NCBI GenBank assembly: GCA_013297675.1
Contig: JAAFHZ010000013.1
Coordinates: 1-54,493, forward strand
DNA length: 54,493 nt
Direction: 5' to 3'
From: Synechococcales cyanobacterium bin59.metabat.ball.084
GTDB taxonomy: Bacteria > Cyanobacteriota > Cyanobacteriia > Cyanobacteriales > Chamaesiphonaceae
The notes beneath the pieces were generated by a model, which saw nothing but the letters and a program-made list of their open reading frames with translations, did no database searches and was not told where the DNA came from. The position numbers and the translations under genes are program-made. Below are positions 23,392 through 41,822 of the stretch, piece by piece. Each line of letters starts with the position of its first letter. Within the stretch, counting starts at the first letter, position 1.

Positions 23392-23460
23392 AGGATTAAG
23401 GATCAGAAGTTTACATCTGCTCCCAGTATAGCTGAGAAGATTCAGAATCATGAAACCTGT

Positions 23461-24378: not shown

Positions 24379-24551
24379 GTTGGTACTCTGGCTCAGAATA
24401 ATTTTTTACACCTGTTGAGCATTAAGCATAATTACTTAAAGCCTTACCCCGTGGGGTATCGGTGCGGTTTAGCATCTAATAATTTTACCATGCTCTCGCA
24501 TGGCAAGGCGGAATGAGCACAACATTGAGTTAGCCGCAGCTCAGATCGAAC

Positions 24552-25538: not shown

Positions 25539-25723
25539 TTATTAAATATAGAGTTAAGTAATGTAAATCTTTCCCTCAAATATTAACAGAATTATTGTAA
25601 ATCGGAAACATAACGTTACACTTTCCTGCCGATTGCGCCTCTGACTGCTGATCTGGAGGTGGCTTCAAAATGAGATTCATCCTCAGAGACAGGCAATCAG
25701 AGAGAGACAATCAGAGGTGCAAA

Positions 25724-25834
25724 TTATTTTTTTTCTAAGACGGCTTGAGCCTTAAGAATGCCAAAGCCCAAGGCTAGGCCAACCAAGATCATGAAAAAAG
25801 GGATAGCAGCAACGGTTAAAATTTCAGCAAGCAT
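25724..25834 (-). CDS. petM: Cytochrome b6f subunit PetM-like
   Basis: This 36-residue ORF is a single-helix membrane protein: MLAEILTVAA then 'IPFFMILVGLALGFGILKAQ' and AVLEKK. The helix followed by 'LK(I/A)Q' fits PetM, the small subunit VII of the cytochrome b6f complex. It starts 38 bp from the divergent pdxA start. Identification rests on length, hydropathy and the C-terminal motif; another single-helix thylakoid subunit is possible but less likely. Confidence 0.65.
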   Translation of the reverse strand: MLAEILTVAAIPFFMILVGLALGFGILKAQAVLEKK

Positions 25835-25872
25835 CGATTTTATTAACTCCAGAATATATATAGGTACTGTCA

Positions 25873-26907: not shown

Positions 26908-26974
26908 AGAGGGACTCGAACCCCCGACCAGCTACTTAGAAGGTAGCTGCTCTATCCGGCTGAGCTATTCACCC
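26901..26974 (-). tRNA. tRNA-Arg (anticodon UCU)
   Basis: The minus strand folds as a full cloverleaf: acceptor stem GGGTGAA/TTCACCC (7 perfect pairs), D arm with AGCTCAGCCGGATAGAGC, anticodon stem GCTAC/GTAGC with loop CTTCTAA (anticodon TCT), and T arm containing GGTTCGAGTCC. CCA is not encoded. The first seven nucleotides of its 3' end overlap the end of pdxA. Confidence 0.95.
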
Positions 26975-27044
26975 CGGCGAACCACATTATAGCATCGGCA
27001 AATACTTTTGGTGCGACCGACTTCCAGATGCGTCTTATACGACC

Positions 27045-28664
27045 TTAATCTAAAATTACTAATCCCAACCTATTTGTGGGGAAGAATATTCCTAAGCAAT
27101 CCTGACTTTCTTGCTTATTGGTAATCAGCCATGGATGGCCGACAAAGGTTTTTTGTATTTGTTGGCCGCCAGCACCTAAATCAAAATAGTGCTGATTTTC
27201 ACCGCGCTGATTTATCCAGTAGACTTTAATTGGCGACAGTCTCTTATTGATCACTTGTATAGCAGTGCGCTGACCGCCTGATACAGAGCGATGTTTTATT
27301 TTGTTTTGACAGCCTGTTGACTTTAAACTATCAATTTGGCTCTCTGCCAGTCGTGAAGCTTGAGATGGTGGAGATGAAGTTGTTGGTAAGTCTGATATTG
27401 GTATGGGTGAGAAATCAATGGATCGATTAGTAAAATGACCTATGATCGCCCAACTTACTCCTGCAATAGTTCCGATTGCTAACAATATTCCAGCTTGCCT
27501 CAAGACATTCTCTAATGACATATTCTTTGATTTTGGTAAACAGACTTGCCACCATTGGGCAGTAGGTGGCGATTGCAAACGATGCCCCAATTGCTGCCAA
27601 GTGAGAGAATCAGCAATTGCCGCTTGTACGATAATTGGCAGCCAGCTAGCCCCTGGCAACTCATTTTCTAAGCCTTGTAAGCGCAGTCGTGCTTCTCGAA
27701 CGGCCAAATGGAGCGGTTGGCCACCGGCAAAAGCTGGTAAAAAGTAGCGGAGAAAAGCCTGTGCCACTCGATCGGTTACTGGTTCCCGCATCACAATAAC
27801 TTGCGGCAATTGTACCTGTTGTAATTCTAGTGCTAACCCCAGACCGTCACAAGAATTAAAAATTGCTAGTTGCAGACCGTTGGCAACTGCTTTGTGTAGA
27901 GCATGACGCAATTCAGAAATCGTCAGGCTATCAGTCTGATTGATATAAATTCTGCCCTGTTCACCTTCTGTACGGCTATGACCAGCAAAAAATAAGATAT
28001 CCCACTCCTGCTCCCACAAATGATCATTAATTTCAGCCCGTTGTGGTTCTACCAAAAAAGTGGTTTCAGCATTAGTAAAACTATTGATTAGTTGGCGATC
28101 GCTCTCAATATCAATCCCTTCTCTATTGCCCAGAATGGCCAGAATTTTTACTGGACTACGAGTAGTCATCCGGGGGGGCAAAAAAACTGGTTTTGTGTGC
28201 GTAACATTTAAAGCTATTTCTGCTGTGGGATTTTGTTCAACTAAATCCCATAAATACCAAGGTATTCGGAGGAGTGATGGCTCAGAGGTGCGTACTAATA
28301 TCAGCACTTCTTCTTTCATTAATTCGGCTAGCCACCTATCACGAATAGCCCGAAAGGAATCTACCAATAGCCAATTATTAAACTGAGTACGTACTTCTGG
28401 TTCGAGTTGCTGGCAAGCTTTAATAAATTCTTGCTGGCGATCCAGATAAATACTCTGAGGCTGGATGCGGGTTTCTCCGATGCCGTGGTAGTTGGATTGC
28501 CATCGTTGGAGAATATCTGCTAAATGGGGATTTGCCGGTAATACTCCACTAACTTCTGTCCTAAGAATTTCTTGATTCTCTCTAGTAGATTCCATGGATA
28601 ATACTACCTGGATATCTTGATGTAGATCGCCAGTTAATAATCTGAGAATAGCCTGCTTACCCAT
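27045..28664 (-). CDS. CHAT-domain protein with C-terminal VHL-beta-like domain
   Basis: The 539-residue protein has a CHAT (caspase-like) peptidase domain at about 170-355, with the catalytic His229 in 'DILFFAGHSR' and Cys272 in 'FNSCDGLGLALEL'. A single membrane helix follows (391-409). The C-terminal 464-535 region ('AIQVINKRLSPIKVYWINQR', 'FVGHPWLITN') resembles the beta domain of von Hippel-Lindau protein. The N-terminal 160 residues are a conserved CHAT-associated region. It ends a three-gene operon with DUF1822 and a sigma factor, an arrangement found in several cyanobacteria. It is likely a signalling or defence protease; the substrate is unknown. Confidence 0.8.
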   Translation of the reverse strand: MGKQAILRLLTGDLHQDIQVVLSMESTRENQEILRTEVSGVLPANPHLADILQRWQSNYHGIGETRIQPQSIYLDRQQEFIKACQQLEPEVRTQFNNWLLVDSFRAIRDRWLAELMKEEVLILVRTSEPSLLRIPWYLWDLVEQNPTAEIALNVTHTKPVFLPPRMTTRSPVKILAILGNREGIDIESDRQLINSFTNAETTFLVEPQRAEINDHLWEQEWDILFFAGHSRTEGEQGRIYINQTDSLTISELRHALHKAVANGLQLAIFNSCDGLGLALELQQVQLPQVIVMREPVTDRVAQAFLRYFLPAFAGGQPLHLAVREARLRLQGLENELPGASWLPIIVQAAIADSLTWQQLGHRLQSPPTAQWWQVCLPKSKNMSLENVLRQAGILLAIGTIAGVSWAIIGHFTNRSIDFSPIPISDLPTTSSPPSQASRLAESQIDSLKSTGCQNKIKHRSVSGGQRTAIQVINKRLSPIKVYWINQRGENQHYFDLGAGGQQIQKTFVGHPWLITNKQESQDCLGIFFPTNRLGLVILD

Positions 28665-28699
28665 CTTTGATGTTTCCTCAGCGTTTAAAAACTATAATT

Positions 28700-29659
28700 T
28701 CAGGCTACAAAATTCTCGCTAAAAAGAATTTCACCTAGATGTATTTCGACGCTAAACCTTTCATTAAGTTGCGCAGTAAAGTTAAACTCCATATTTTGAT
28801 TGGTGGGTGCTGCAACTGCCTGCATGACAGCAATTTGATGATTATCAAGTATTCTAACCTGTAGATCTACTGGTAAATATTTCTGATCGCTGCTTGATAA
28901 AATTTGGACTTTAACATTCATATCATTCTCAGAGGCAGCTTTTAGTGTAATTTGCAGCAAAATTTCCGTCGTCGTTTGAGGAGTGGTGAGCTGAAGCAGT
29001 TTACCTCGTTCCACTATTCGTTGAGCAGCATTATCTGTACTACGGAAGGCTAATTTGGATGGATTTGAGCTAAAAATCATTTGCAGATCTTGCCAACCTG
29101 TTTCAAAACAGTTATCAAGCCATTTTCTGAGATTAATTTGCCTGAGATTAACTCGATCAAGAACAGGTGATTCGCTGGAAGCAATGGAGCGTAATTGCTG
29201 CAAATACTCTGGCAAAGCATCGATCGACTGTAACTGATCGAGGGGGATAGTAGCCGTGGCAGTGGTCGTAAAACCAAGAATCTGTGCTTGCTTTAGGGCT
29301 TGATCGAATTGCACAGCTACATACCCCACTCGATCGGCTTGAACTTCAGCCGGAATTTCTAACGTATCAGCACCTGGTAAAACTGGGCGACATTCTAACT
29401 TCCCGATCGACTGCACAACTAAATCAGCTACATTCATAAATTTTAAACAGAGTGGATTCTGGCTATCACTTTGCGCGATGGCAGTGTCTATCCCCAAACA
29501 ACGCAGATAAAAATCTACTGCATAGACTGCCAAAGTATTAAGATAAACTTGTTTAGCAGTTTGCGGATTAGATTGCTGTCGCCGGAATTCCTCCGCTCGG
29601 GCATGTGCAGAAAATGAGAGGGGAACGGGGAAAGTGATTGATGCTTGTAATTGGTTCAT
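28700..29659 (-). CDS. DUF1822 family protein
   Basis: The 319-residue protein shows the DUF1822 pattern: 'VYLNTLAVYAVDFYLRCLGI' and 'LECRPVLPGADTLEIPAEVQ' with 'DRVGYVAVQFDQAL', and a C-terminal beta-rich part ('DLQVRILDNHQIAVMQAVAA'). Function is unknown. It lies between the sigma-factor gene (29 bp upstream) and the CHAT gene (35 bp downstream), so the three are probably made together. No membrane segment or signal peptide is visible. Confidence 0.85.
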   Translation of the reverse strand: MNQLQASITFPVPLSFSAHARAEEFRRQQSNPQTAKQVYLNTLAVYAVDFYLRCLGIDTAIAQSDSQNPLCLKFMNVADLVVQSIGKLECRPVLPGADTLEIPAEVQADRVGYVAVQFDQALKQAQILGFTTTATATIPLDQLQSIDALPEYLQQLRSIASSESPVLDRVNLRQINLRKWLDNCFETGWQDLQMIFSSNPSKLAFRSTDNAAQRIVERGKLLQLTTPQTTTEILLQITLKAASENDMNVKVQILSSSDQKYLPVDLQVRILDNHQIAVMQAVAAPTNQNMEFNFTAQLNERFSVEIHLGEILFSENFVA

Positions 29660-29687
29660 AATTAATCTCTAAATTGTTGTTAGTAAG

Positions 29688-30374
29688 CTATTCCTGTAAG
29701 TGTCTGTGGAAATAAGGGGTTAATTTTTGCAAGCGGCGGTTAAAAAAGCTACAGAGGGTTTGAATAGAAATATTTAATTCTCCAGAGATTTCTTCCCAGG
29801 TTCGATCTTGGACAACTTTTTCTAGAGCCAGCCATTGAAAGGTGATCTCTGGTCGCTCTCGCAAGTGTTCTTGTTTCAGTAAGTTTTCTGGATCTTCAGC
29901 TAAAAATTGTTGTAGTAGGCAATTGTCTGATATCGATTCTTCGACAGGAATATCCCAGTCCAGATCATCTAATGATCTCAAAGCCGGAGTTTTTCCTTGA
30001 TCACTGGCCGGTAAATAAGTCAGACCAGAACGGCGATAGTCATTTAAGACTCTAATAAAATATCTACTCAGTAAGAAGTTTACCCAGGCCATCACAGCGT
30101 GCTGTGGATTGTAACTGTCAATTTTTTGACAAATTTCTAGTAATGTCCGCTGAAGAGCCTCATTATAAAGATCTTCATAGAGCTGTGGTGGCCATGCTCC
30201 TTTTTGAGGATGACCTAGCTGCTGAGACTGCATCACTTGAGCAACGAGATTGTTCAATAGCCTTTGCCTAGCGGGACTTTGGGCTGGATACCGCTGGGCT
30301 GCTTGTGCTAGCTCTTGCAGCACTTGATCATTTTTGTTACCAGTCATGGAGCTATCAAAATCAGCATGGGTCAT
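29688..30374 (-). CDS. Sigma-70-like (ECF-type) transcription factor
   Basis: The 228-residue protein has a sigma region 2-like segment ('LYNEALQRTLLEICQKIDSY', 'AWVNFLLSRYFIRVLNDYRR') and a C-terminal helix-turn-helix like region 4 ('VVQDRTWEEISGELNISIQT'). It is diverged from standard ECF factors, as is usual for the sigma-like proteins found with DUF1822 and CHAT genes. It heads the operon and would be expected to control it or a linked process. No anti-sigma gene is adjacent. An alternative ATG at 30347 is possible. Confidence 0.7.
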   Translation of the reverse strand: MTHADFDSSMTGNKNDQVLQELAQAAQRYPAQSPARQRLLNNLVAQVMQSQQLGHPQKGAWPPQLYEDLYNEALQRTLLEICQKIDSYNPQHAVMAWVNFLLSRYFIRVLNDYRRSGLTYLPASDQGKTPALRSLDDLDWDIPVEESISDNCLLQQFLAEDPENLLKQEHLRERPEITFQWLALEKVVQDRTWEEISGELNISIQTLCSFFNRRLQKLTPYFHRHLQE

Positions 30375-30679
30375 ATCTCCTTACTGGATAGATTAAGCGC
30401 TGCCTAGAATATAACAATTTGCCTTGATCTCATCAACGTGACATATCTTAAACTCCCTAAAAGTCTCTACCAGTGATTGTCTGGAGCAGAATTACACCAA
30501 CGCATATTTTTACAAAACTTAATTTTTGCAGATTTGCGTAAAAAGTGAAGATTTTTCGCCAATACATGGTGATGAGGCAAAATGATGAATTTTTGCCGCT
30601 TGCTGCTTTTTCAATTAAAGGGGCAAGCAATCTAGCTACTAAATCACACATCATGTCTCTACCCTTTCACCTTAAAAAA

Positions 30680-31408
30680 ATGACTATCAAACTACTGTTG
30701 GTTGATGACCAAGATGCTTCTCGCCAAGGCTTAGCCAAGGTTTTGAACACCAAGCAAGATCTAGAAGTCGTAGGTCAAGCTGCTTATAGTCGAGATGCTG
30801 TCAGTTTAACCGCAGCACTACATCCCGATGTTATTCTGATGGAAATATGGACACCCCTGTTTGACGGAGTAATGGCTACCTGTGACATCAGCAAACAATT
30901 CCCTTGGGTCAAAATTGTTGTTTTCACCAATTGCGATGAAGAGGAATATGTCTGGCCATCTTTACAGGCTGGTGCAATTGGTTATTTGCTAAAAAACACA
31001 CCGATCGACCAATTAGTACAAGCAATTCGATCGGCTTACCGAGGTTATGCTCAATTAGGCCCGACGATTGCCCCCAAAGTGTTTGGTCAAGCATTAGCTA
31101 AACCCTGTAAAACCTTGTCTAGCTCTTCCAATAATTTTTCAGAGGCATTAAGTGCCAGAGAGTTAGAGATTTTGAAGCTGATGGCTGCGGGCAAAAATAA
31201 TCAAGAAATTGCCGGGTTGCTGCATGTTACCAAAGGAACTGTCCGTAACCACATCAGTAATATTTTGGGGCGATTAGGAGTGCGAGATCGCATTCATGCC
31301 ATCCTCTGGGCAAATCAACACTTAACAGATACTTCAGAAAATTGCAATTCTGCTTATTTGCAGCAGCAAACCTTCGGAATTAATTATCAAACAAAAGCGA
31401 CACCATGA
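30680..31408 (+). CDS. NarL/FixJ-type response regulator with Glu at the phosphorylation site
   Basis: I place the start at 30680 (MTIKLLLVDDQDASRQGL, 242 residues); the longer open frame adds 45 residues with no receiver homology. The receiver domain keeps Asp9-Asp10, Thr83 and Lys105, but the phosphoacceptor position is Glu55 ('VILMEIWTPLFDG' where a typical receiver has LMDIRMP). A LuxR-type helix-turn-helix follows at ~160-215 ('LSARELEILKLMAAGKNNQE', 'GTVRNHISNILGRLGV'). A Glu there often mimics phosphorylation, so the protein may be constitutively active. No histidine kinase is nearby. It lies directly upstream of the peptide-export operon and is the best candidate to bind the repeated motif found there. 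Confidence 0.85.
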   Translation: MTIKLLLVDDQDASRQGLAKVLNTKQDLEVVGQAAYSRDAVSLTAALHPDVILMEIWTPLFDGVMATCDISKQFPWVKIVVFTNCDEEEYVWPSLQAGAIGYLLKNTPIDQLVQAIRSAYRGYAQLGPTIAPKVFGQALAKPCKTLSSSSNNFSEALSARELEILKLMAAGKNNQEIAGLLHVTKGTVRNHISNILGRLGVRDRIHAILWANQHLTDTSENCNSAYLQQQTFGINYQTKATP

Positions 31409-31412
31409 CACT

Positions 31413-31446
31413 TGTCATATTCTAAAACATGACAAGTGTTACATGT
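31413..31446 (+). promoter_or_regulatory. Composite regulatory motif upstream of the peptide-export operon
   Basis: The element TGTCAT-N8-ACATGACA-N6-ACATGT occurs here and, with identical spacing, at 36117-36150 before the precursor peptide gene; 27 of 34 positions agree. Just upstream, ATGACA-ct-TGTCAT (31405-31418) forms a perfect dyad overlapping the regulator stop codon. It lies about 80 bp before the HlyD-like start. I infer an operator for a shared transcription factor. Confidence 0.7.
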
Positions 31447-31527
31447 GGTGATCTAGTTTTTATCGTTAGGATGCATCCAAGTATATTTTGCAGATCAGCA
31501 AACCGGTATATTCAAAATTACATTGCT

Positions 31528-32130
31528 ATGGATAATAACTTTACCATCCCTCTCTTTCGTCAAGAAGCCCTAGAACATGCTGGTCGGCGGTCATTTCTCA
31601 GTCAGGTCATTGTAACGACACCAATTCATTTTTGGGTTTCTACCATAACTTTATTAGGTTTTACGACGGTTGGTTTGTATCTTTCTACATTAGTGCAACT
31701 CCCGCGCAGGCTGGAACTCGCTGGTCAAATTGCAGCCCAGCCCAGCCCAGCAGCAGTATCAGCTCAACTGTGGGCTGATGCTGATACCATGACAAAACTT
31801 CGCCCCGGACAAGAAGTGCAAGTGAAATATGCCGCTTTCCCCTTTCAAACCTATGGAGTATTTACCGGTCGAGTGCAAGCCATCGCCGATCACGAAGTGT
31901 CTCTGAAAGAGAATCGACCCATCGAGTCTAAGAATCAGCAATATTCTCCTCAGAACTTGGCTTATCCGGTGGCAGTAGAGCTGCAGCAACCATATATTTC
32001 AGTGGGCAGTCAACAGATTCCTCTCCGTCCGGGTATGACTCTAACGGCAAACATTTTACTAGAGCGCAAAACATTATTTAACTGGCTATTGGAATCATTC
32101 ACCGGAGGGCAGAAAAATGGCAAGACTTAA
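31528..32130 (+). CDS. Short HlyD/CvaA-like membrane fusion protein
   Basis: The 200-residue protein has one N-terminal membrane helix ('FWVSTITLLGFTTVGLYL') and a beta-barrel segment typical of HlyD-type adaptors ('MTKLRPGQEVQVKYAAFPFQ', 'YGVFTGRVQAIA', 'LRPGMTLTANILLE'). It lacks the long coiled-coil hairpin and lipoyl half, so it is about half the usual length. I use the ATG at 31528; the in-frame ATG at 31429 falls inside the regulatory motif. Its end overlaps the ABC exporter start by 14 nt, as in colicin V-type export operons, and it should link that exporter to the periplasm. Confidence 0.75.
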   Translation: MDNNFTIPLFRQEALEHAGRRSFLSQVIVTTPIHFWVSTITLLGFTTVGLYLSTLVQLPRRLELAGQIAAQPSPAAVSAQLWADADTMTKLRPGQEVQVKYAAFPFQTYGVFTGRVQAIADHEVSLKENRPIESKNQQYSPQNLAYPVAVELQQPYISVGSQQIPLRPGMTLTANILLERKTLFNWLLESFTGGQKNGKT

Positions 32131-34357
32131 TCTCAAAAACTGGAAGATGCTACTGGGCTACCGTCAGCGCATTGAGCCAATCTATCAGGTAGAGGCAGCA
32201 GAGTGCGGCTTTGCTTGTCTAGCGATGGTGCTCTCAAAATATGGGCTAGAGACTAATATGCAGGCTTTCCGCTCTCGCTATCGAGTGTCACTACATGGTG
32301 CAGATCTGCACACATTAAGCGAGATTGCCCATGATTTTGGGCTAGTTACTCGTGCTCTGCGGGTGGAACTAAGCGCTCTGCCCAAACTTCGCCTACCTTG
32401 TATCGTACATTGGAATTTTAATCACTTTGTTGTGCTAGAGAGCGTCGGGCGATCGATCGAAGTTGTAGATCCGGCTTTAGGTCGTCAAACCTATGGCCTA
32501 GAAGAATTCTCACGGCATTTTACTGGGGTGGTTCTGGAACTTGTGCCGGGGGCAAATTATCGTCGCGGAACACTAGTACAGCGCTTGCGGCTGCGGGATA
32601 TTCTCAATGGTTTAATGGGCTGGCGTTCTAGTCTGGCGCATGTGTTGGTTCTTGCGACTGTTCTACAATGCGTCAGCTTAATTAGCCCTCAGTTCTTACA
32701 ACAGGGCATTGACCAGATCGCCGCCAATCAAGATATGCATTTTTTGGTGCCGCTGGTGCTGGGATTTGGATTTGTCTATATTCTCCGCATTGCCCTTTCG
32801 ACTCTGCAAAAGCTACTTGTGCTTCATTTGGGAACTCAAATTGCCTATCAATCTCAGCGCAATCTATTTCATCATCTGCTGACTTTACCCATGCGCTACT
32901 TTGAAGCCCGGAGCGTGGGAGATATCGTTTCTCGGTTTGAGTCCTTTGAGCCGATCAATAACATGGTGACAGGAGATGCGATCAGTACCCTGCTCAATGG
33001 TGTTACGGCAGCAATTACGGCTGTTTTACTCTTTACCTATAGTCCGCTGTTGGCCAGTGTTGTATTGGGTGTTTTGGGGCTGACGATGCTAGTAAAAGTC
33101 TGGTTTTTGCCCGCCCAACGACGCTTGACAACCGATAGTATTGTGGCTAGTGCCAAAGAAGATACTGTTTTTATGGAAACGATTAGGGGGATGCAGTCTA
33201 TTAAAGCTCTGGCTGGAGAGCAATTGCGTTTCCAAGCTTGGGATGCTGTCTATACCAGCGCAATTAATGCTGGGCTGCGATCAAAAAAGTTAGAAATTAT
33301 TGCTGCTGTGCCAATTGGGTTAATAGAGCTATTAGATAGCATTGGCATTCCCGCTATTGGTTTTTACTTGATTATTCAGGGACAATTCACTGTCGGAATG
33401 CTTTATGCATTTTTAGTCTATAAAGATTCTTTTTATCATGCTGCTGAAAGCCTAATTGATGTAGTTGCCAAATTCTGGCTGAATCGTCTACATTTGGAAC
33501 GATTGGGAGATATTGCTTTAGAAGCGCCAGAGATTAGTGCATTGTCTAGCTCAGAGCCAAAAGAGATCCCGGCTACCCCTGAGACCATGATCGATTCCCT
33601 GCGGGATAGCTGCGCTTCACGGGTGCAAATGTTAGAACTGCGCAATGTAAGTTTTCGCTATGCAGATCACGAACCAGATCTATTTACATCTATTGACCTC
33701 ACTTTGCATACCAACGAAAATGTTGTCTTAATTGGAGCATCAGGTGCGGGTAAAACTACATTAGTAAAAATTCTTAGTTCTCTGGAAAAGCCCAATGAGG
33801 GAGCAGTTTATCTCAATGGCAGTGCCTTACAGACCAATCAAATGACTGCCTACCGTCGCCGGATTGGGATGGTATTACAAAGCGATCGACTCTTTGCTGG
33901 TTCAGTGGCTAGCAATATTGCCTTTTTTGCTGAACAGATTGATCAGGACAAGATTGTTGCTATTGCTCAGCTCTGCGTTATTCATGACGAAATTATGGCA
34001 ATGCCGATGGGGTATGAAACCCTGGTAGGAGATATGGGCAGTGCTCTCTCTAGTGGTCAACAACAGCGTATTTTGCTTGCTCGTAGTCTCTACCGTGACC
34101 CAGACTATCTCTTTTTTGATGAAGGTACTGCCAACATCGATCCAGCTAATGAATGGCGCATTTTACAAAACCTGCGCACTGCTGGATTCGGCATTTTCTG
34201 TGTTGCCCACCATCCGGCCTGTCTGGAATTAGCCGATCGAATTTTAGAGTTAAAAGATGGACAACTGCGCGAGCTGACACCAGACAAACTCATATTTCCT
34301 CAGAGCCTAATCTCTACATCGTCAGACTTATATCACGGTGATCTGCAACGCAGGTAG
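32117..34357 (+). CDS. C39 peptidase-containing bacteriocin ABC exporter (CvaB-like)
   Basis: The 746-residue protein has three domains in order. An N-terminal C39 peptidase carries an intact triad: Cys30 ('AAECGFACLAM'), His103 ('NFNHFVVLE') and Asp118 ('VVDPALG'). A six-helix transmembrane domain spans ~170-430. The ATPase has Walker A 'GASGAGKT', signature 'LSSGQQQR', Walker B 'YLFFDEGTANID' and H-loop 'VAHH'. Such PCAT proteins cut peptide leaders after a double-glycine-type site and export the core. The linker 'FWLNRLHLERLGDIALEAPE' is characteristic of the colicin V branch. The likely substrate is the precursor encoded at 36281-36538. Confidence 0.93.
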   Translation: MARLNLKNWKMLLGYRQRIEPIYQVEAAECGFACLAMVLSKYGLETNMQAFRSRYRVSLHGADLHTLSEIAHDFGLVTRALRVELSALPKLRLPCIVHWNFNHFVVLESVGRSIEVVDPALGRQTYGLEEFSRHFTGVVLELVPGANYRRGTLVQRLRLRDILNGLMGWRSSLAHVLVLATVLQCVSLISPQFLQQGIDQIAANQDMHFLVPLVLGFGFVYILRIALSTLQKLLVLHLGTQIAYQSQRNLFHHLLTLPMRYFEARSVGDIVSRFESFEPINNMVTGDAISTLLNGVTAAITAVLLFTYSPLLASVVLGVLGLTMLVKVWFLPAQRRLTTDSIVASAKEDTVFMETIRGMQSIKALAGEQLRFQAWDAVYTSAINAGLRSKKLEIIAAVPIGLIELLDSIGIPAIGFYLIIQGQFTVGMLYAFLVYKDSFYHAAESLIDVVAKFWLNRLHLERLGDIALEAPEISALSSSEPKEIPATPETMIDSLRDSCASRVQMLELRNVSFRYADHEPDLFTSIDLTLHTNENVVLIGASGAGKTTLVKILSSLEKPNEGAVYLNGSALQTNQMTAYRRRIGMVLQSDRLFAGSVASNIAFFAEQIDQDKIVAIAQLCVIHDEIMAMPMGYETLVGDMGSALSSGQQQRILLARSLYRDPDYLFFDEGTANIDPANEWRILQNLRTAGFGIFCVAHHPACLELADRILELKDGQLRELTPDKLIFPQSLISTSSDLYHGDLQRR

Positions 34358-34450
34358 CGATCGATTCCCTTTGGCACAGCTTCACTTCACGGACTGCTCT
34401 GTAGATTTTACCTAATTTATTAACAACAGCTTATTTTGGAGGAAAATACC

Positions 34451-35428
34451 ATGAATTCAATCACTATAATGCCTTGGTTACGCCGTAGATCCCGCCAACT
34501 GCTGGCAGCAATTGCCACATTAGGTCTCATCGAAACTACCCATCTAACTATTGCTAAATTTCGGGGGGTGCCCTTGGCTTGCCCTACTAACGGCTGCGAT
34601 CGAGTTCTGAACAGTCCCTACGCTGATCTGTTTGGGGTGCCGCTCTCTCTGCTCGGGGTAATGGCCTATACTACTATTTTAGTTCTGGCAATTGCACCGC
34701 TGGTAGCCAGTCACTATCGGGCGCAGCAGTGGCAGAGATTAGTAGAAATTACCTGGCAACTACTCTTTGTTAGCACTACTGGAATGGCTGTTTTCAGCAG
34801 TTACATGATGTATGTAATGGCTTGGAAGGTGCAAGCTCTTTGTCTTTATTGCCTGGGTTCTGCAATTTTAGCGATGAGCCTTTTTACCATTACCTTGTTA
34901 GGAAATCGCTGGGAGCACTGGCGACGGCTTTGCCTGTTTGGTAGTTCGATCGCGCTAATAGTCTTATTTAGCAGCTTGGCAGTTCATGCTGATGTAGAAC
35001 GGGCTGATGTGGAGCGAGTGGCACAGGCGCAGCTATCATCTGCAAATACACTTACTCTAGAGCCTCAAGGCGAACCAACTTTGGGAGTTGGGTGGGAGGT
35101 CAAGGCATTATCTGGCACAGCAGAACTGCAACTGGCTCGACATTTGAAGCAAATAGGTGCCAAAGAGTATTCAGCTTGGTGGTGCCCCCACTGCCACATT
35201 CAAAAAGAGTTGTTTGGCAAAAATGCTTATACGGAGTTGCCCAATGTAGAGTGCGATTCCGCAGGGAAAAATGCCCAGCCAGCAGTATGTGATATGGCTA
35301 AAATAGAAGGCTTTCCGACTTGGGATATTAAAGGCCAGCGGTTAATCGGGCCGCAATCATTACAAACATTAGCAAAAGCTTCTGATTATCGCGGACTGCA
35401 AAATTTTAGCAACAAGATACCACAGTAG
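34451..35428 (+). CDS. VKOR-thioredoxin fusion, disulfide-bond forming protein
   Basis: The 325-residue protein has a VKOR domain with four membrane helices, the loop cysteines Cys44/Cys49 ('LACPTNGCDRVLNSPYA') and the quinone-side active site Cys131-x-x-Cys134 ('CLYC'). A C-terminal thioredoxin-like domain carries 'WWCPHCHIQK' (Cys245/Cys248). The fused pair oxidises cysteines in exported proteins, passing electrons to quinone. Start ATG 34451 follows a perfect GGAGG. Cyanobacteria usually have one house-keeping VKOR; this one lies in the peptide-export operon next to a two-cysteine precursor, so a dedicated maturation role is plausible. It could instead be the general enzyme placed here by chance. 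Confidence 0.9.
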   Translation: MNSITIMPWLRRRSRQLLAAIATLGLIETTHLTIAKFRGVPLACPTNGCDRVLNSPYADLFGVPLSLLGVMAYTTILVLAIAPLVASHYRAQQWQRLVEITWQLLFVSTTGMAVFSSYMMYVMAWKVQALCLYCLGSAILAMSLFTITLLGNRWEHWRRLCLFGSSIALIVLFSSLAVHADVERADVERVAQAQLSSANTLTLEPQGEPTLGVGWEVKALSGTAELQLARHLKQIGAKEYSAWWCPHCHIQKELFGKNAYTELPNVECDSAGKNAQPAVCDMAKIEGFPTWDIKGQRLIGPQSLQTLAKASDYRGLQNFSNKIPQ

Positions 35429-35460
35429 TTGAATTTAAAACGATCTCTAACAGGAATGAA

Positions 35461-36054
35461 ATGAAGACCAATACCAGAATTCAAGTCTTGCTAACATCCA
35501 CCTTAGTGCTATTAGCTGGTGGTCATAAAGTGAGCGCTCAAACTAATAGTAATGATGATCAAATAGGGCTGCCCACTAATCCAAAAAATCCTTTAGAGCC
35601 ACCCAGCAGCACAAATGATTCATCTGTGAATGCAATCAACAATTTATTACCAACTAATCCAATAACTTCATCTCCAGCAATCGACCAGCCAACCAACATC
35701 AACAACACTAATAATTATAATCCCGACGGTTATTCTATAAATTATCCAAACTGCTCTGGTACTTGTGTGTTTGCTATTGGCAAAAATGATCGTCAAAATG
35801 GTTGGCAGTTTACTACCGGCGTGATCTGGAATATTAATTCTCCAGAGAGAACTCAAGCAGAAAGCAGTAGAATGCTAGCAATCGCACAAAGTCAAAAAAT
35901 CAATACAGACAGTAATTTACTCTTAATGGAGAAGCTCACAGGGGCGATCTCCTCAGGAAAAATAGAGCAGGCCAATGGACTGGCAATTATCTTAGCTAAT
36001 CGTCTTGGCTATTCGGATCATAAGAGTTTAATAAAAGAAATCAAAGGGAAGTAA
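35461..36054 (+). CDS. Secreted protein of unknown function in the peptide cassette
   Basis: The 197-residue protein has a signal peptide (cleavage near 'KVSAQ'), an Asn/Pro/Thr-rich low-complexity linker (residues ~30-95) and a C-terminal domain beginning 'PNCSGTCVFAIGKNDR' with a Cys-x3-Cys pair, followed by a helical part. Proteins with a 'C(P/S)GTCVFAI' motif occur in other cyanobacteria without known function. It begins 32 bp after the VKOR gene and a terminator overlaps its end. Its place between the disulfide catalyst and precursor suggests an accessory or immunity role, which is inference. Confidence 0.65.
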   Translation: MKTNTRIQVLLTSTLVLLAGGHKVSAQTNSNDDQIGLPTNPKNPLEPPSSTNDSSVNAINNLLPTNPITSSPAIDQPTNINNTNNYNPDGYSINYPNCSGTCVFAIGKNDRQNGWQFTTGVIWNINSPERTQAESSRMLAIAQSQKINTDSNLLLMEKLTGAISSGKIEQANGLAIILANRLGYSDHKSLIKEIKGK

Positions 36055-36071
36055 ACAGTTCTTCCCTTTTT
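36043..36071 (+). terminator. Terminator closing the peptide-export operon
   Basis: AAAGGGAAG (36043-36051) pairs with CTTCCCTTT (36061-36069) and a T-run follows. The stem begins within the last codons of the secreted-protein gene. It separates the operon from the precursor gene, which has its own promoter region. Confidence 0.85.
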
Positions 36072-36116
36072 GGGCTGACAATAACTTTGCAATGGAACTT
36101 GTGAAATTATGATTAA

Positions 36117-36150
36117 TGTCATAGACAAAAACATGACACTAGTCACATGT
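36117..36150 (+). promoter_or_regulatory. Composite regulatory motif upstream of the precursor peptide gene
   Basis: Second copy of TGTCAT-N8-ACATGACA-N6-ACATGT, with the same spacings as at 31413-31446. It lies about 130 bp before the precursor start, directly upstream of an AT-rich stretch (TATAAA, TAGAAT) that could hold the -10 element. I see no third copy in the window. Confidence 0.7.
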
Positions 36151-36280
36151 ATATAAATTGAGGTAAAAGTAGAATGTAAACATGGAAATAAGATAAGGTT
36201 AATCGCCCAAATCCGATTTCCAATTCAGCCATCAATTTAGATGGAATCTCTCACAAAACACAAATAAAAGGAGACTCGTC

Positions 36281-36538
36281 ATGAGCACATTTCAAATCGA
36301 AAACAACGATCTACGCGAATTATCCCTTGCAGAAAAAACCGAAGTTAATGGGGCAGGAGAATGTTACCGATTCCCCAATGGTTTTCAGAACCCTTTTCGC
36401 TGGGTAACTTCTGGCTCAGTTTTTGCAATTCCACAAAAATTCAGTGGCGGACGCTACGTGAATAATGGAAGAGGTATAAACTACAATGGCAATTTTGGCG
36501 CATTTTGCAAGTCTCGTGGATACAACTACTTTTCATAA
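36281..36538 (+). CDS. Double-glycine-type leader precursor peptide (putative two-cysteine bacteriocin)
   Basis: The 85-residue ORF follows an ideal ribosome site (AAAGGAG, 7 nt spacing). Its first 25 residues fit the double-glycine leader consensus position by position: Leu-12, Ser-11, Glu-8, Val-4, Gly-2, Ala-1 ('ELSLAEKTEVNGA'), so cleavage after Ala25 is expected. The 60-residue core is strongly cationic (Arg/Lys seven, acidic one), rich in aromatics and Gly/Asn, and has just two cysteines (28 and 76), one near each end. That suits a single disulfide closing a large loop. The exporter, disulfide catalyst and shared promoter motif are all adjacent. I do not recognise the core family. Confidence 0.75.
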   Translation: MSTFQIENNDLRELSLAEKTEVNGAGECYRFPNGFQNPFRWVTSGSVFAIPQKFSGGRYVNNGRGINYNGNFGAFCKSRGYNYFS

Positions 36539-36600
36539 AATTTTTGCCCTGACTGCTTAGGGCAAAATACAGCTAGAAAATCTATTTACTAGCTTTCAAT

Positions 36601-36636
36601 GATCGCCTCTCTGACATTGGGGGGCGATCGTTTTTT
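36601..36636 (+). terminator. Terminator after the precursor peptide gene
   Basis: GATCGCC (36601-36607) pairs with GGCGATC (36623-36629), followed by G and six T. The stem is made from a HIP1-like sequence. A second hairpin, GCCCT/AGGGC, lies closer to the gene at 36548-36566 but has no T-tract in this direction. Confidence 0.75.
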
Positions 36637-36692
36637 GGTTTTCGGAGTAGCCCTTTCACTTTAGATTTGAATTGGCCTTTCTTCACCTCAAC

Positions 36693-37595
36693 CTAACCCC
36701 GCTGACGACGGCTTCGTCGCACATAGGTTAAATAGACAATCAACACCACAAACATCACTCCAGCCAAGATTAAATTAGTGCCGCGATCCATATTGGCCAT
36801 CATGTTTTGATAGGCTGCAATAATTTTATCGCCAGCAAATAGACTCACCACTGCTCCGGCTGCCAAAAATGGTCCAAGGGGAAACTTGCGGCGACTACTG
36901 CCTAGTAATACGGCACTGCCCATCACTGCCGAGCCAACGAAGGATGCCATGCCACCAGTGAGCACTACTCCCGACCAGCCCAACCAAGCACCAACCATCC
37001 CCATCAGCTTGGCATCACCGCCACCCTGGGCTAACTGACCCATCAGCAGAGTTCCCAGGATTTGGATAATGTCATAGATCCAAATTCCTAGTACCATGCC
37101 CCCGATCGAACCCATAAAATACTGCACAGCCCCAGCGATCGTCTGAGTTTCTTGATAGCCCAAAAAAGTTTGAAACACCACGCCCAAAACCAACCCGGAA
37201 CTAGTCAACGGATTGGGTAAAGTCATGGTATCTAGATCGATCGCCGCCAAAGCAATTAACCAAGCCAACAGCAAGCAATAGCCCCCGGTATGCCAAGTGG
37301 CACCAAACCGCCAAAAAGTCGCCAGCCACAGGCAAGCTGTAAAAGCTTCAAACAGCGGATATCGCACCGAAATTGAAGTATGACAATGGCGACAGCGCCC
37401 CCGCAACATCAACCAGCCCAAAATTGGAATATTTTCGGTCAAACCCAGCTTATGCCCACATTTTGGACAGCGGGAAGGCGGCCACACCAAAGAGATCCCG
37501 GCAGGGAGTCGATAGATCACCACATTCAAAAAACTGCCAACACAAGCCCCGAGGCCAAAAACTAGCCCCGCCAGAATCATTTGTTCATCAATCAT
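36693..37595 (-). CDS. pilD: Type IV prepilin peptidase/methyltransferase
   Basis: The 300-residue membrane aspartyl protease cleaves and N-methylates type IV pilins. The cytoplasmic loop has two CxxC pairs ('SRCPKCGHKL', 'GRCRHCHT') of the methylase/zinc part; the catalytic aspartates are in 'IALAAIDLDTMTLPNPL' and 'QGGGDAKLMGMVGAWLG'. About seven to eight membrane helices are seen. It lies 3 bp after a small ORF and leuB on the same strand. It is unrelated to the chaperone-usher locus, which uses a different assembly path. Confidence 0.95.
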   Translation of the reverse strand: MIDEQMILAGLVFGLGACVGSFLNVVIYRLPAGISLVWPPSRCPKCGHKLGLTENIPILGWLMLRGRCRHCHTSISVRYPLFEAFTACLWLATFWRFGATWHTGGYCLLLAWLIALAAIDLDTMTLPNPLTSSGLVLGVVFQTFLGYQETQTIAGAVQYFMGSIGGMVLGIWIYDIIQILGTLLMGQLAQGGGDAKLMGMVGAWLGWSGVVLTGGMASFVGSAVMGSAVLLGSSRRKFPLGPFLAAGAVVSLFAGDKIIAAYQNMMANMDRGTNLILAGVMFVVLIVYLTYVRRSRRQRG

Positions 37596-37598
37596 GGG

Positions 37599-37868
37599 CT
37601 ATCTGCCGTTCCGCATCTGGTGAAGTGGAATAAAGCGCTCTTCTGGCAATAAAACGGGCGCTTGACGAAACAACAGCTTGCCCCGATAAGAAATAGGGTT
37701 CAATACCACCCCGATCGGCTCCTTGGCGCGATGCTCATGGACTTGCAGATATCTTTGATACAGGGCGCGGGCAGCACCCACCAAATCTAGTTCTTCTGAC
37801 TCATAGAAATTTTCTACTTCAGAAGCAGTATTAGTCTGACTTGATGAGTGGGGGTGTTGTGTTTCCAT
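37599..37868 (-). CDS. Small hypothetical protein between leuB and pilD
   Basis: The 89-residue soluble protein has a polar N-terminus followed by 'ELDLVGAARALYQRYLQVHE' and 'PIGVVLNPISYRGKLLFRQA'. I do not recognise a family. The gene is tightly packed: 6 bp from leuB upstream and 3 bp from pilD downstream, so it is real and co-transcribed by position. No motif suggests an enzyme. Confidence 0.65.
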   Translation of the reverse strand: METQHPHSSSQTNTASEVENFYESEELDLVGAARALYQRYLQVHEHRAKEPIGVVLNPISYRGKLLFRQAPVLLPEERFIPLHQMRNGR

Positions 37869-37874
37869 GTTTAT

Positions 37875-38963
37875 TTAAATTTTAGCTAATGCTTGAACTA
37901 ACAACTCGCCCATTTGCTTACAACCTACTGGGTTCATCCCTGGAGACATGATATCGCCGGTGCGATAGTTGCCATCTAACACGGTTATGACGGCTTTTTC
38001 CAGTTGTTGAGCAGCTTCTGGTTCATTTAGCCCATACTTCAACATCATGGCGGCGCTGAGTACTTGAGCAAGTGGGTTAGCTTTATCTTGCCCAGCAATG
38101 TCGGGTGCAGAACCATGTACTGGTTCAAATACTCCCAAACCGCTGGCTCCGAGGCTAGCCGAGGGCAACATGCCAATGCTGCCGGTGAGCATGGCGGCGA
38201 TATCTGACAAAATATCGCCAAATAAGTTGCTAGTCACAATTGTATCGAATTGCTTGGGCGATCGAACTAATTGCATTGCCGCGTTATCCACATACATGTG
38301 GGTGAGTTCTACGTCTGAATATTCTTTGGCAATTTCGATCACCCGATCGCGCCAGAACTGGGATACTTCCAATACATTGGCTTTATCTACCGAGCAGAGT
38401 TTTTTGGTGCGTTTCTGAGCGGTTTCAAAAGCCACTCGGGCAATGCGATCGATTTCTGACCCGGTATAGGCCATGGTATTAACCCCGCGCTGTTCGCCGG
38501 TTTCGGTGCTAAATACGCCGCGTGGCTGGCCAAAGTAAATGCCGCCGGTTAATTCTCGTACCACCATAATATCTACGCCTTCAATTACTTCGCGCTTGAG
38601 GCTAGAAGCATCCACGAGCTGGGGGACGATCGAAGCTGGTCGGAGATTGGCAAACAATTCTAAGCCCGATCTCAGACCCAATAAACCGGTTTCGGGGCGC
38701 TGGGCACGGGGTAAGTTGTCCCACTGATAGCCGCCGATCGCCGCTAACATCACGGCATCACTGTCTTTACAGGCGGCTAAAGTTTCGGGCGGTAAAGGGT
38801 TGCCAGTGGCTTCGATCGCTGCTCCACCAATGAGGGCTTCTTTGAACACAAAGTTGATGCCACTTTTGGCTCCTACGGCTTTGAGCATCTCCACCGCCAC
38901 TGTTGTAATCTCTGGCCCAATGCCGTCGCCAGGTAACAGGGTGATGCGGTAGTTTTTGCTCAT
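37875..38963 (-). CDS. leuB: 3-isopropylmalate dehydrogenase
   Basis: The 362-residue enzyme catalyses the oxidative decarboxylation step of leucine biosynthesis. Signature segments are '[19 protein letters not shown]', '[15 protein letters not shown]' (substrate loop with Arg/Tyr) and '[20 protein letters not shown]' with the metal-binding Asp residues, then '[20 protein letters not shown]' for NAD specificity. The length is normal. It starts a three-gene run with the small ORF and pilD. Confidence 0.97.
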
Positions 38964-39084
38964 GGTTGGTCTCCGATAGATTAGTGGTTCTAGATTTTAT
39001 CAAAATATGGCGGCAATTCAGGATTCTGCCTCCACCTTATCTATTAACTCTATGGGCAACGAATGAAAATTTTGGCGATCTACA

Positions 39085-39972
39085 TTATTCGGGTTCGACG
39101 ATGGATCGATTGGCCAACAAATCGCCGATCGTCGATCGCACAATTGTAATCAAGCCCGCTCGCTCATGGAAAGCTGGGGAATGAGGATCAAGTTCTAGTA
39201 ACCGACAAGTGCGATCGAATGCTAAGAATTTTTCTACCAGAGATTTACTCGCTGCCACAATTTTATACTTTGCACCCATATATAAGGAATCGTATACCTG
39301 AATAATTCCATAGATCAGCTCTAGTTCTGCGGTTTGAGTACAATTCAACTCTCCTTGAACCCAAGGACTAACTTGGGGGGTAGCTAGCTTGAGTACCTGA
39401 TTACATCGCAACCCAATGTAGTGCAAAAGGTCATCACTGGCTGTTGATATAGAAAAATCGCAATATTGAGCGACTAGACCACTGCGATCGAACAGCATTT
39501 TTAGCCAAATACTCAGAGCTTTAATTGTTGGTTGAAAGCACAAATACCCGCGATTGTCTATCCAAATAATCCAGTTTGCCACATCAGTTTTCAAATTAAT
39601 GTTGGCAAGCTGCGTTATTAGTAATTCGCTCCATTCCGACCTGTTATCTAGTGATAGTTTGTTGCTATTTGATTGTGATCCAGTATGAACGACCGTTCGT
39701 TCTTTGAAAGTACTAATAGAATCAAAACCAGACGTTTTTAAGGGGTAGTTTATATTATCGATAGGATTATTACCTATTAATTTATGGATGACAGCGCTAG
39801 AGTATAACCCTTGCTGTGCAACAAATACAGGGCAGGTGGACATTGCTACCGGAGCATCTTTTAGCAGCGTTTGTGGCTGATTAACACTAACAATTAACCC
39901 AGACAATATTTTGCTAGCTTTAGTAGAAAGTGCTAAATCAGCTAATATGTTGCAAGATAAAAAATATGACAT
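39085..39972 (-). CDS. Stand-alone DALR anticodon-binding-like domain protein
   Basis: The C-terminal ~130 residues of this 295-residue protein resemble the DALR domain of arginyl-tRNA synthetase: 'LLHYIGLRCNQVLKLATPQV', 'AELELIYGIIQVYDSLYMG', 'KFLAFDRTCRLLELDPHSPA' and 'AGLITIVRSTIGDLL'. In ArgRS this helical bundle reads the tRNA anticodon. The N-terminal 160 residues are not recognisable and contain none of the catalytic HIGH/KMSKS motifs, so it is not an active synthetase. Related free-standing DALR proteins occur in cyanobacteria; their role is unknown. It is divergent, by about 65 bp, from a Crp-family regulator. Confidence 0.65.
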   Translation of the reverse strand: MSYFLSCNILADLALSTKASKILSGLIVSVNQPQTLLKDAPVAMSTCPVFVAQQGLYSSAVIHKLIGNNPIDNINYPLKTSGFDSISTFKERTVVHTGSQSNSNKLSLDNRSEWSELLITQLANINLKTDVANWIIWIDNRGYLCFQPTIKALSIWLKMLFDRSGLVAQYCDFSISTASDDLLHYIGLRCNQVLKLATPQVSPWVQGELNCTQTAELELIYGIIQVYDSLYMGAKYKIVAASKSLVEKFLAFDRTCRLLELDPHSPAFHERAGLITIVRSTIGDLLANRSIVEPE

Positions 39973-40038
39973 TTTAAGTTTTTAATGTAAGATAGTAAAA
40001 TCTAGAATCTACTGTTGAACCATCTATGTATATTAGTT

Positions 40039-40761
40039 ATGTATAGTGTTTATACACCATCTACCATTGAAGATTCTCTATTGCGTTGGCAGCAAATTTG
40101 TCATTGGGCGCAAGAGAATGATCGCTGTCAGCAATATCAAAAAGATGCTTTAGTATCTTGCGAAAGTGGGTGGATATATTTTGTCCAGCGGGGAGTGGTG
40201 AGGTTACATGGTCAGCAGATCAGTGAGTCTTTGCCTAACTTGTCTGACTCATCAACAGCCACTGGCTTGATCGACTCTCCCAAAGATCCGGTACCTTCGC
40301 TGTTAGCTTTAGTGGGCACTGGTCAACCTTTTGAGTTAGGGCGAGATCTCCAGATTCAGGTAACTGCTCATACCCGCAATACCCAAGTGCTGCGCATTCA
40401 TGCGCGGGAGCTGTCTTTGGTGCCCGGTTTTGAAATGGATACGCTCCAGGCTTTTCGCTATCAGCATCAGCGACAAATGCTGCGGCTCAATAATCTTACC
40501 CGAGGTCGCACGGTAGATCAGCTCTTGGGCTATCTGCATCTTTTAGCAGAAGAATTTGGTGAAGAAGATCATGCTGGTCTACATATCCCTTTTGTTCTAA
40601 CCCATGCTCAATTGGCTGGGGCGATCGGTTCCACCCGAGTAACGATCACCCGCATGTTGGGAGAACTGCGGAAGTACGGTGAAATCAGTATTTCTAGCGG
40701 CAACAAAATTTCTTTACCGATCCGCAAAAAACTAACCTGGCATCTGCACCTGATAGAATAG
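40039..40761 (+). CDS. Crp/Fnr-family transcription regulator
   Basis: The 240-residue protein (ATG 40039; an in-frame TTG at 40015 would add eight residues) has a diverged cyclic-nucleotide-binding-like N-terminal barrel and a C-terminal winged helix-turn-helix ('LTHAQLAGAIGSTRVTITRM', 'LGELRKYGEISISSGNKISL'). The recognition helix keeps the 'S(T)R.T.TR' pattern of the family. The effector site is not typical of cAMP binding, and it is not NtcA by sequence. It is divergent from the DALR protein and may regulate it. It is followed 62 bp later by rsmA. Confidence 0.8.
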   Translation: MYSVYTPSTIEDSLLRWQQICHWAQENDRCQQYQKDALVSCESGWIYFVQRGVVRLHGQQISESLPNLSDSSTATGLIDSPKDPVPSLLALVGTGQPFELGRDLQIQVTAHTRNTQVLRIHARELSLVPGFEMDTLQAFRYQHQRQMLRLNNLTRGRTVDQLLGYLHLLAEEFGEEDHAGLHIPFVLTHAQLAGAIGSTRVTITRMLGELRKYGEISISSGNKISLPIRKKLTWHLHLIE

Positions 40762-40823
40762 AGCCGCTCTGGTTTGGCCGGTGCTCAGGCACCCTAAAAA
40801 CTAAAGAAGTACATATAAAAGAA

Positions 40824-41675
40824 GTGAAAACCAAGAAACAGTTTGGACAGCATTGGCTGCGCAGCGAACGGGTGCTCGATCGCATTATGGCGGCTGCGGC
40901 TCTGGGTGAGAATGATCGTGTGTTAGAAATTGGCCCTGGGATGGGGGTTTTGACTACCAGGCTAGCCAGGAAGGTGCCGGTGGTGGCAGTGGAGATCGAT
41001 CGAGATCTCTGTACCCATTTAGTGAAAAAAATGGGTAGCTTGGATAACTTTTTGCTGCTCCAGGGTGATTTTTTGCAGATGGATGTAGCAGAGCAACTCA
41101 CCAACTTCCCCCGCTTCCAGCAGCCCAATAAGGTGGTAGCTAATATTCCTTACAACATTACTGGCCCAATTTTAGAGCAGCTCTTGGGTGATATTGCCGC
41201 GCCATTGGCTCCGGCTTTTGCCAGTATTACTTTGTTGGTACAAAAGGAAGTCGCTGAAAGATTAACCGCTAAACCAGGAACCAAAGCCTTTGGTGCTTTT
41301 ACGGTACGCATTCAGTATCTTGCTGAATGTGAGTTAATTTGTCCGGTGCTAGCCAAAGATTTTTCGCCGCCGCCCAAGGTAGATTCGGCGGTGATTCAAC
41401 TGCGACCTCGACCTTTTGCACAAGTTGCTGCCCAGCCTTTGTGGTTAGATAAACTAGTACGGATGGGTTTTAGCAGTCGGCGCAAGATGTTACGGAAAAA
41501 TTTACAGTCATCGATCGCTGGTAATCCTGACGAGAACCGAGACAAAATTGGTTGTCTATTAACTAAGTTAGGATCAAATTCAGAAGCCCGAGCCGAAGAT
41601 CTTACCGTTAGTCAATGGATTGAGCTAAGTAATATTTTGGGTCAAGAGGAGATCTGTGCATCGCCTGAGACTTAA
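40824..41675 (+). CDS. rsmA: 16S rRNA (adenine1518-N6/adenine1519-N6)-dimethyltransferase
   Basis: The 283-residue KsgA/RsmA enzyme dimethylates two adenines at the 3' end of 16S rRNA. It begins at a GTG ('MKTKKQFGQHWLRSERVLD'). AdoMet motif I is 'VLEIGPGMGVLTTRLA'; the catalytic 'NIPYNITGPIL' (NLPY-type motif IV) and 'FGAFTVRIQYLAECE' follow; 'FSPPPKVDSAVIQLRP' is the typical post-motif. The protein is complete. Confidence 0.95.
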   Translation: MKTKKQFGQHWLRSERVLDRIMAAAALGENDRVLEIGPGMGVLTTRLARKVPVVAVEIDRDLCTHLVKKMGSLDNFLLLQGDFLQMDVAEQLTNFPRFQQPNKVVANIPYNITGPILEQLLGDIAAPLAPAFASITLLVQKEVAERLTAKPGTKAFGAFTVRIQYLAECELICPVLAKDFSPPPKVDSAVIQLRPRPFAQVAAQPLWLDKLVRMGFSSRRKMLRKNLQSSIAGNPDENRDKIGCLLTKLGSNSEARAEDLTVSQWIELSNILGQEEICASPET

Positions 41676-41822
41676 ATCTGGGGCAAGACATCGACTCTCT
41701 GCTCTTAGATGCTACCCGCAGGACAGGCTCAGGCCATCGCCACCCCGCAACAGCAGACTGACAAATAATCTCTAACGAGATCAGTGGTTAAGCACTGTAT
41801 TACTACATCACCAGCAACAAAT

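Follow-up and report, generated by a model that had tools for sequence, protein, structure and literature searches.

We analysed a stretch of 54,493 nucleotides (the window) on contig JAAFHZ010000013.1 of Synechococcales cyanobacterium bin59.metabat.ball.084, in which a short CvaA/HlyD-like adaptor, a peptidase-containing ABC transporter (PCAT), a fusion of vitamin K epoxide reductase and thioredoxin (VKOR-Trx), a secreted protein, and a small precursor peptide with two core cysteines are encoded side by side (Table 1). A first-pass annotation had proposed this gene set (short HlyD, C39 exporter, VKOR-Trx, secreted protein, and two-cysteine precursor), and it was confirmed; all five genes were found where they had been placed. 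The five frames are all open and close-set, and the adaptor and PCAT frames overlap by 14 bp. The PCAT, the extra VKOR, and the two-cysteine precursor look like one co-regulated cassette. Judging from its sequences, this cyanobacterial cassette probably functions in the manner of class II microcin (colicin V) exporters, with a second VKOR-Trx added.

Table 1. Coordinates of the cassette and its flanking features in the window
Feature	Position	Strand	Evidence
NarL/LuxR-type response regulator	30680..31408	+	Response_reg 3.4e-19, GerE 2.8e-17
20-bp site ACATGACAAGTGTTACATGT, upstream of transporter operon	31427..31446	no strand	genome-wide pattern match
Short CvaA/HlyD-like adaptor, 200 aa	31528..32130	+	TIGR01843 partial match, alignment
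PCAT, 746 aa, CvaB-like	32117..34357	+	domains, alignment, tree
VKOR-thioredoxin fusion, 325 aa	34451..35428	+	Pfam VKOR, structure match, tree
Secreted protein, 197 aa	35461..36054	+	signal peptide judged by eye; one CxxxC Cys pair
20-bp site ACATGACACTAGTCACATGT, near-palindrome, upstream of precursor	36131..36150	no strand	genome-wide pattern match
Precursor leader, 25 residues, ends ...LRELSLAEKTEVNGA	36281..36355	+	leader patterns
Precursor core, 60 residues, Cys 3 + Cys 51	36356..36538 (stop codon included)	+	translation
Terminator-like hairpin 3' of precursor	36598..36632	+	consensus match only

The two 20-bp sites share the pattern ACATGACANNNNNNACATGT; the first lies 81 bp before the start of the adaptor, and the second lies 130 bp before the start of the precursor. 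The pattern was spotted by eye, post hoc, and its chance count in the window, with up to two mismatches allowed, is 0.26. In the whole 4.64-Mb genome, these two sites are the only exact matches; there are no sites with one mismatch and 15 with two mismatches, and a reversed control pattern gave 7 sites in all. Because the precursor and the transporter operon are both preceded by a 20-bp site that is exact nowhere else in the genome, we consider that the precursor belongs with the operon. The response regulator just upstream, the listed frame of which opens at 30545 and the receiver domain of which begins near 30695, is a candidate binder of both sites, as its position and its type of helix-turn-helix suggest.

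Of the frames of 45-200 aa in the window, the precursor alone matched two double-glycine-leader regular expressions written by us (mean of 0.05 in shuffled sequences, n = 40). After cleavage behind GA, the core would have an average mass of 6803.45 in the reduced form and 6801.43 in the oxidised form, a pI of 9.9, and a charge of +5.7; Gly, Asn, Phe, and Tyr are abundant in it. No Pfam or NCBIfam model matched the precursor at E 1. In a sample of 292 genomes of the phylum, its best match beyond its own genome had an E value of 0.015 and contained an internal stop, and a plasmid search with the precursor and the secreted protein gave no match. The predicted fold of the precursor had a pLDDT of 49.7 and was not used. 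The first-pass annotation had stated that no modifying enzyme is present, and in agreement with this, the Pfam and NCBIfam matches of the cassette proteins include neither a lanthionine synthetase nor a nitrile-hydratase-type gene; this search covered the cassette and not the remainder of the window.

Elsewhere in the same genome, an 88-bp stretch (C146:15569-15656; in L159, minus strand, near 7570-7657) is 88% identical to positions 36352-36440 of the window. It corresponds to core-coding DNA and lies just upstream of a frame that resembles lepA by eye. This stretch may be what is left of another precursor copy or of a small mobile element.

The exporter and its short adaptor

The PCAT contains the domains Peptidase_C39 (5e-31), ABC_membrane (1.5e-38), and ABC_tran (2.8e-27), and most of its sequence can be aligned with PCATs of solved structure, e.g., 4ry2 and 8vp3. 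The residues Q24, C30, H103, and D118, which we take to be catalytic, are invariant in an alignment of six sequences, so that the intact C39 triad reported earlier was borne out.

In a tree of cyanobacterial sequences only, the PCAT has an end branch of 2.8, and the LanM-linked PCATs are nearest to it. Among 388 genomes of the order (its own included), the best other exporter match shows 32% identity and 337.6 bits, versus 1655.7 bits for the PCAT itself. A scan of species genomes with an alignment of the PCAT and five cyanobacterial exporters confirmed at least 567 relatives, from which the best 80 were kept; the five best of these comprise four Gammaproteobacteria and one Oligoflexia. In both a quick tree of 71 sequences and a careful tree of 31 sequences, the PCAT falls in a clade of seven together with L251-L255 and L275 (Rhizobium), with support of 100 and 100/100, respectively; its partners in the clade belong to Gammaproteobacteria, Rhizobium, and Oligoflexia. 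Once other phyla were included, the placement of the PCAT with the cyanobacterial LanM-linked exporters, a group chosen for the approximately unbiased (AU) test after the cyanobacteria-only tree had been seen, was rejected (p-AU 8.6e-7). The clade, otherwise met here in Pseudomonadota and Bdellovibrionota, now has an exporter in a cyanobacterium.

By our reading of the sequences, the neighbourhoods in this clade appear CvaA/CvaB-like. A RELS/RELT-type leader pattern, written after LRELSLAEKTEVNGA of the precursor had been seen, matched four of the six other clade loci (L251, L253, L275, and weakly L254, at 6 kb from its PCAT), and outside the clade it matched 2 of 106 other loci scanned (L262 and L301). 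The loci of the best 80 relatives gave no match to the cassette VKOR, the secreted protein, or the precursor at E 0.01. The first-pass annotation had suggested a possible new class of exported peptide, in which the VKOR replaces the modifying enzyme of other double-glycine systems. A new class is unsupported because the exporter groups with CvaB-like exporters and similar leaders occur in most of the clade; in type, both the exporter and the leader match class II microcin systems. Class IIa microcins (5-10 kDa, exported by a PCAT and a membrane-fusion protein, with GG or GA cleavage sites) have already been described as carrying disulfides as their only modification (PMC10233263). As to a replacement, none is apparent: no such modifying enzyme was seen by eye in the exporter's own clade.

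The adaptor matches only positions 320-412 of the 422-position model TIGR01843 (type I HlyD), with 62.5 bits, below the cut-off. It consists of an N-terminal FRxEA motif, a hydrophobic segment, and a C-terminal part. The adaptors directly before the exporter have 404-425 residues in L251-L255 and 418 in L275; the cassette adaptor aligns at both ends with five CvaA-type adaptors of 404-425 aa and is 204-225 residues shorter, and the absent stretch is presumably where the lipoyl and hairpin parts lie. Its 29 other homologues all have at least 430 aa, and the significant match is at their C-terminus only.

In three LanM clusters, too, the frame immediately preceding the PCAT gene is short and adaptor-like (L239:9621-10322, 233 aa; L240:6491-7084, 197 aa; L246:8675-9280, 201 aa). 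The three frames have a similar N-terminal motif, and their likeness to HlyD was judged by eye; no Pfam family matched the L240 frame. These frames weaken the notion that the short adaptor is a unique feature. The cassette adaptor is only 19% identical to the L240 frame; thus, common descent of the short forms is not established. Before a PCAT of Thermosporothrix, a 64-aa frame (L256:7707-7901) has only an adaptor-like N-terminus and a hydrophobic segment. Clipped adaptors may therefore recur.

In a sister species (G001), positions 36693-42872 of the window, from the prepilin peptidase rightwards, are conserved at 86.7-89.8% nucleotide identity. Synteny ends at 36692/36693, which is the right border of the cassette, and positions 20001-36692 gave no match within the 19.9 kb read in G001. 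Together with the exporter tree, this break suggests that the cassette may have been gained from outside the phylum. A rearrangement could yield the same break, and the exporter clade has six other members only.

The VKOR-thioredoxin and the secreted neighbour

The VKOR-Trx matches Pfam VKOR (4.6e-30) and aligns to the Synechococcus VKOR 4nv2 (9.5e-43) and also to 3kp9. Cysteines 44, 49, 131, 134, 245, 248, 268, and 280 are invariant in seven sequences, and the protein has the loop Cys pair, the CXXC motif, and the CXXC motif of the Trx part that mark the VKOR-thioredoxin family. The genome contains three VKOR matches: the cassette copy, a full VKOR-Trx on contig C184 that is 38% identical to it, and, on C55, a protein with the thioredoxin part only. 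The possibility that the cassette VKOR is the sole house-keeping copy, which the first-pass annotation had named, together with the lack of a conserved link to PCAT genes, as fatal to its proposal, was ruled out by the second full-length copy on C184. An exact-pattern scan of genome contigs for VKOR, a method that reaches close relatives only, confirmed no relative.

In a tree of 54 VKOR sequences, the cassette copy has the longest end branch (1.93 vs a median of 0.32), followed by the C184 copy (1.41). A sister relationship of these two copies was not rejected (p-AU 0.571), and the tree constrained to keep them together scored 2.97 log units above the one from the free search; the cassette VKOR possibly arose by duplication within the lineage. 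The gene abutting the C184 copy encodes a BtpA-like protein, and a btpA-like gene lies within 3 kb of the VKOR in 25 of 53 non-cassette rows, the C184 copy included (by motif search; many flanks are short).

At 35 VKOR loci of other genomes that were read or searched, no match to the C39 part of the exporter was found, and two loci (L077 and L108) matched its transporter part. VKOR was found in 41 plasmid records. Three VKOR copies (L091:6328-7251, L092:6391-7311, and L095:6473-7414) adjoin frames with a His-rich start that by eye resemble metal-transport ATPases, not peptide exporters. In L213-L217 (family f33), a full adaptor and a PCAT are followed by several GG peptides, some of which, in L213-L215, have 3-5 cysteines, and no VKOR is local to them. 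At the loci of the exporter clade, the leader-bearing peptides have no core cysteine in L251, L253, and L275 and one in L254, and these loci have no VKOR. This pattern, though it comes from few cases, is what one would expect if cysteines and VKOR were linked.

No Pfam or NCBIfam model matched the secreted protein at E 1; its predicted fold had a pLDDT of 56 and no match in the PDB at E 0.001. Relatives occur in 4 other genomes among the 292 of the phylum, and a paralogue lies on C145 of the same genome. The Cys pair aligns in five of the six family members, and the sixth has a CxxxC elsewhere. The five loci with relatives gave no match to the cassette VKOR, the precursor, or the C39 part; one of them, L071, includes a plain ABC transporter at a distance of about 0.8 kb. 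The secreted protein as a conserved member of the cassette is thus unsupported. It is a candidate for a second VKOR substrate, or for an immunity or chaperone factor. About 6 kb from the paralogue on C145, a small frame (L072:13211-13477) has a GG-like leader (LTELQATEAHAVYGG) and a core rich in Lys, Arg, and Ser.

Proposed function and rival explanations

The cassette is likely to make a microcin-like exported peptide. The PCAT would cut after GA and export the 60-residue cationic core, and the thioredoxin domain of the VKOR, which would draw on quinone, would hand oxidising equivalents to the core outside the cytoplasm, where Cys3 and Cys51 would be joined. We slightly favour the view that the core peptide is what the VKOR oxidises. 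The product would act on competitors, and the chances that it is antibacterial appear about even. The C39-intact, CvaB-related PCAT and the 6.8-kDa core with two cysteines (the bond being predicted) fit class II microcin systems, from which the cassette departs by its own VKOR and its short adaptor; this variant with its own VKOR is known from one genome. We do not count the cassette as a class II microcin member because its membrane-fusion protein, at 200 aa, is not full length.

Several observations weigh against this proposal. Among the matches listed in the 292 phylum genomes (149 other C39 places and 149 other VKOR places), none of the 149 C39 places lies within 40 kb of a listed VKOR; 72 share a contig with one, the closest pair being separated by 40.7 kb. 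On a conserved link of VKOR to PCAT genes, the lack of which the first-pass annotation had counted against its proposal, the outcome was unfavourable, with no second instance among these matches. The combination of PCAT, VKOR, and precursor is a single case in everything searched, namely the 292 phylum genomes (matches listed), the 388 genomes of the order, and the best 80 of at least 567 exporter relatives. Among the loci read, GG peptides that bear cysteines often have no VKOR nearby (L213, L214, L215, L219, L239, L240, L246, L247, and L250), and cyanobacterial GG peptides with no adjacent VKOR carry 1-5 cysteines; thus, an oxidase encoded nearby is not generally required. LanM is present in four (L239, L240, L246, and L247) of the last five of these loci, and LanM substrates would use their cysteines for thioethers. 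As the branch of the C184 copy is also long, the length of the VKOR branch argues only weakly for a special role. The short adaptor could be a remnant. The 25-residue leader, with its RELS motif and GA site, exceeds the 15-18 residues usual for class II microcins, which have cores of 60-90 aa (PMC10233263); of relevance to the long leader, MccPDI, and probably MccS, carry a second signal of 18 aa (PMC10233263). Among frames of at least 20 aa at 36040-36700, there is no obvious small membrane protein that might serve as an immunity gene beside the precursor.

This last point would also suit a matrix, biofilm, or signal peptide that is not an antibiotic and is exported by the PCAT as EbfG1-4 are via PteB in Synechococcus elongatus. 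There, biofilm depends on the PCAT PteB, and a GA cut site is present in the product of Synpcc7942_1134 (PMC4997328); the core described here is rich in Gly, Asn, Phe, and Tyr. However, the core is cationic, and the exporter clade and leader resemble microcin-like loci, none of which is known here to make an active microcin; such a role is possible, if rather unlikely. We regard it as unlikely, too, that the VKOR serves the secreted neighbour or envelope proteins generally and that gene order placed it next to the PCAT by chance. The VKOR has a general oxidase as its paralogue, and its gene sits between those of the PCAT and the secreted protein, which also bears a Cys pair, conserved in most of its family, and hence could be the true substrate. 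Against this, the VKOR is missing from the matches at the five loci with relatives of the secreted protein, and its end branch is the longest of the 54, as might be expected of a specialised copy, though that of the C184 copy comes second.

The length of the adaptor bears on two further explanations. If the cassette were decaying, the adaptor would have lost its middle, the precursor would have left a fragment elsewhere, and nothing would be exported today. The missing 204-225 residues and the precursor fragment upstream of the lepA-like gene on C146 agree with decay, but the frames are open and close-set, the PCAT and VKOR motifs are intact, and the frames of 197-233 aa before the PCAT in three LanM clusters make a short adaptor no proof of it; we therefore consider decay very improbable. 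A two-step route, which we put forward with considerable doubt, supposes that the stub CvaA cannot bridge to TolC, so that the PCAT would free the cut core into the periplasm, the VKOR-Trx would close Cys3-Cys51, and a separate outer-membrane step would follow. If this were true, the stub adaptor and the oxidase would be one joint adaptation, the reverse of a closed conduit, with which Dsb enzymes of the producer have been reported to be dispensable in the case of MccPDI. Overall, we prefer the microcin-like export system with an added VKOR-Trx.

Comparison with known systems

Class II lanthipeptide clusters contain LanM, as L239, L240, L246, and L247 do; in contrast, none was found among the cassette proteins. 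The cyanobacterial bacteriocin clusters of groups I-VII share with the cassette a C39 PCAT and HlyD near short precursors, but their description does not mention epoxide, disulfide, or oxidoreductase in its main text (PMC3140520), and in our trees the cassette PCAT stands apart from the sampled PCATs of cyanobacteria. EbfG1-4 and PteB resemble the cassette in that a cyanobacterial PCAT serves to export peptides with GG or GA leaders; however, the role shown for them is in biofilm, and the word disulfide is absent from the main text (PMC4997328).

In the literature, we found no paper that joins "vitamin K epoxide reductase", bacteriocin, and C39, and the first two terms occur together in one paper, which deals with drugs and the gut microbiota; these results apply to the wordings searched. 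PedC-type oxidoreductases are secreted thioredoxin-fold proteins that lack the membrane part of VKOR. PedC (of pediocin), BlpGst, and BdbA are thiol-disulfide oxidoreductases dedicated to bacteriocins, as proposed here for the VKOR, but in Gram-positive hosts (PMC4919988). The bacteroidetocins (proposed class IIf) have a PCAT, a thiol oxidoreductase gene, and a cysteine-bearing GG peptide in one region; compared by description, they differ in their Bacteroidetes host and, for A and B, in a leader of 15 aa and four cysteines (PMC6671954). The text on them names, besides the thiol oxidoreductase, a separate five-TM (transmembrane) protein of unstated nature, and "vitamin K" appears in it twice, once in the context of growth media (PMC6671954). 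Because PedC and the bacteroidetocins have been described, a dedicated oxidase in a bacteriocin operon has precedent.

With class IIa microcins and the CvaA/CvaB/TolC system of MccV, the cassette shares the GG/GA leader, the core length, the PCAT with a membrane-fusion protein, a (predicted) disulfide as sole modification, and an exporter clade with CvaB-like neighbourhoods and RELS/RELT leaders. It differs in its cyanobacterial host, its adaptor that is 204-225 residues short, its VKOR, its lack of a recognised immunity gene, and its 25-aa leader. In the case of MccPDI, activity was not abolished when dsbA, dsbB, and dsbD of the producer were knocked out, one at a time or in the combinations tested, and the authors propose that enzymes of the target cell form the disulfides (PMC5311971). 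As activity survived the Dsb knockouts of the producer, that work leaves the site of microcin disulfide formation unsettled; a cassette with its own oxidase and a clipped adaptor would allow this site to be addressed directly.

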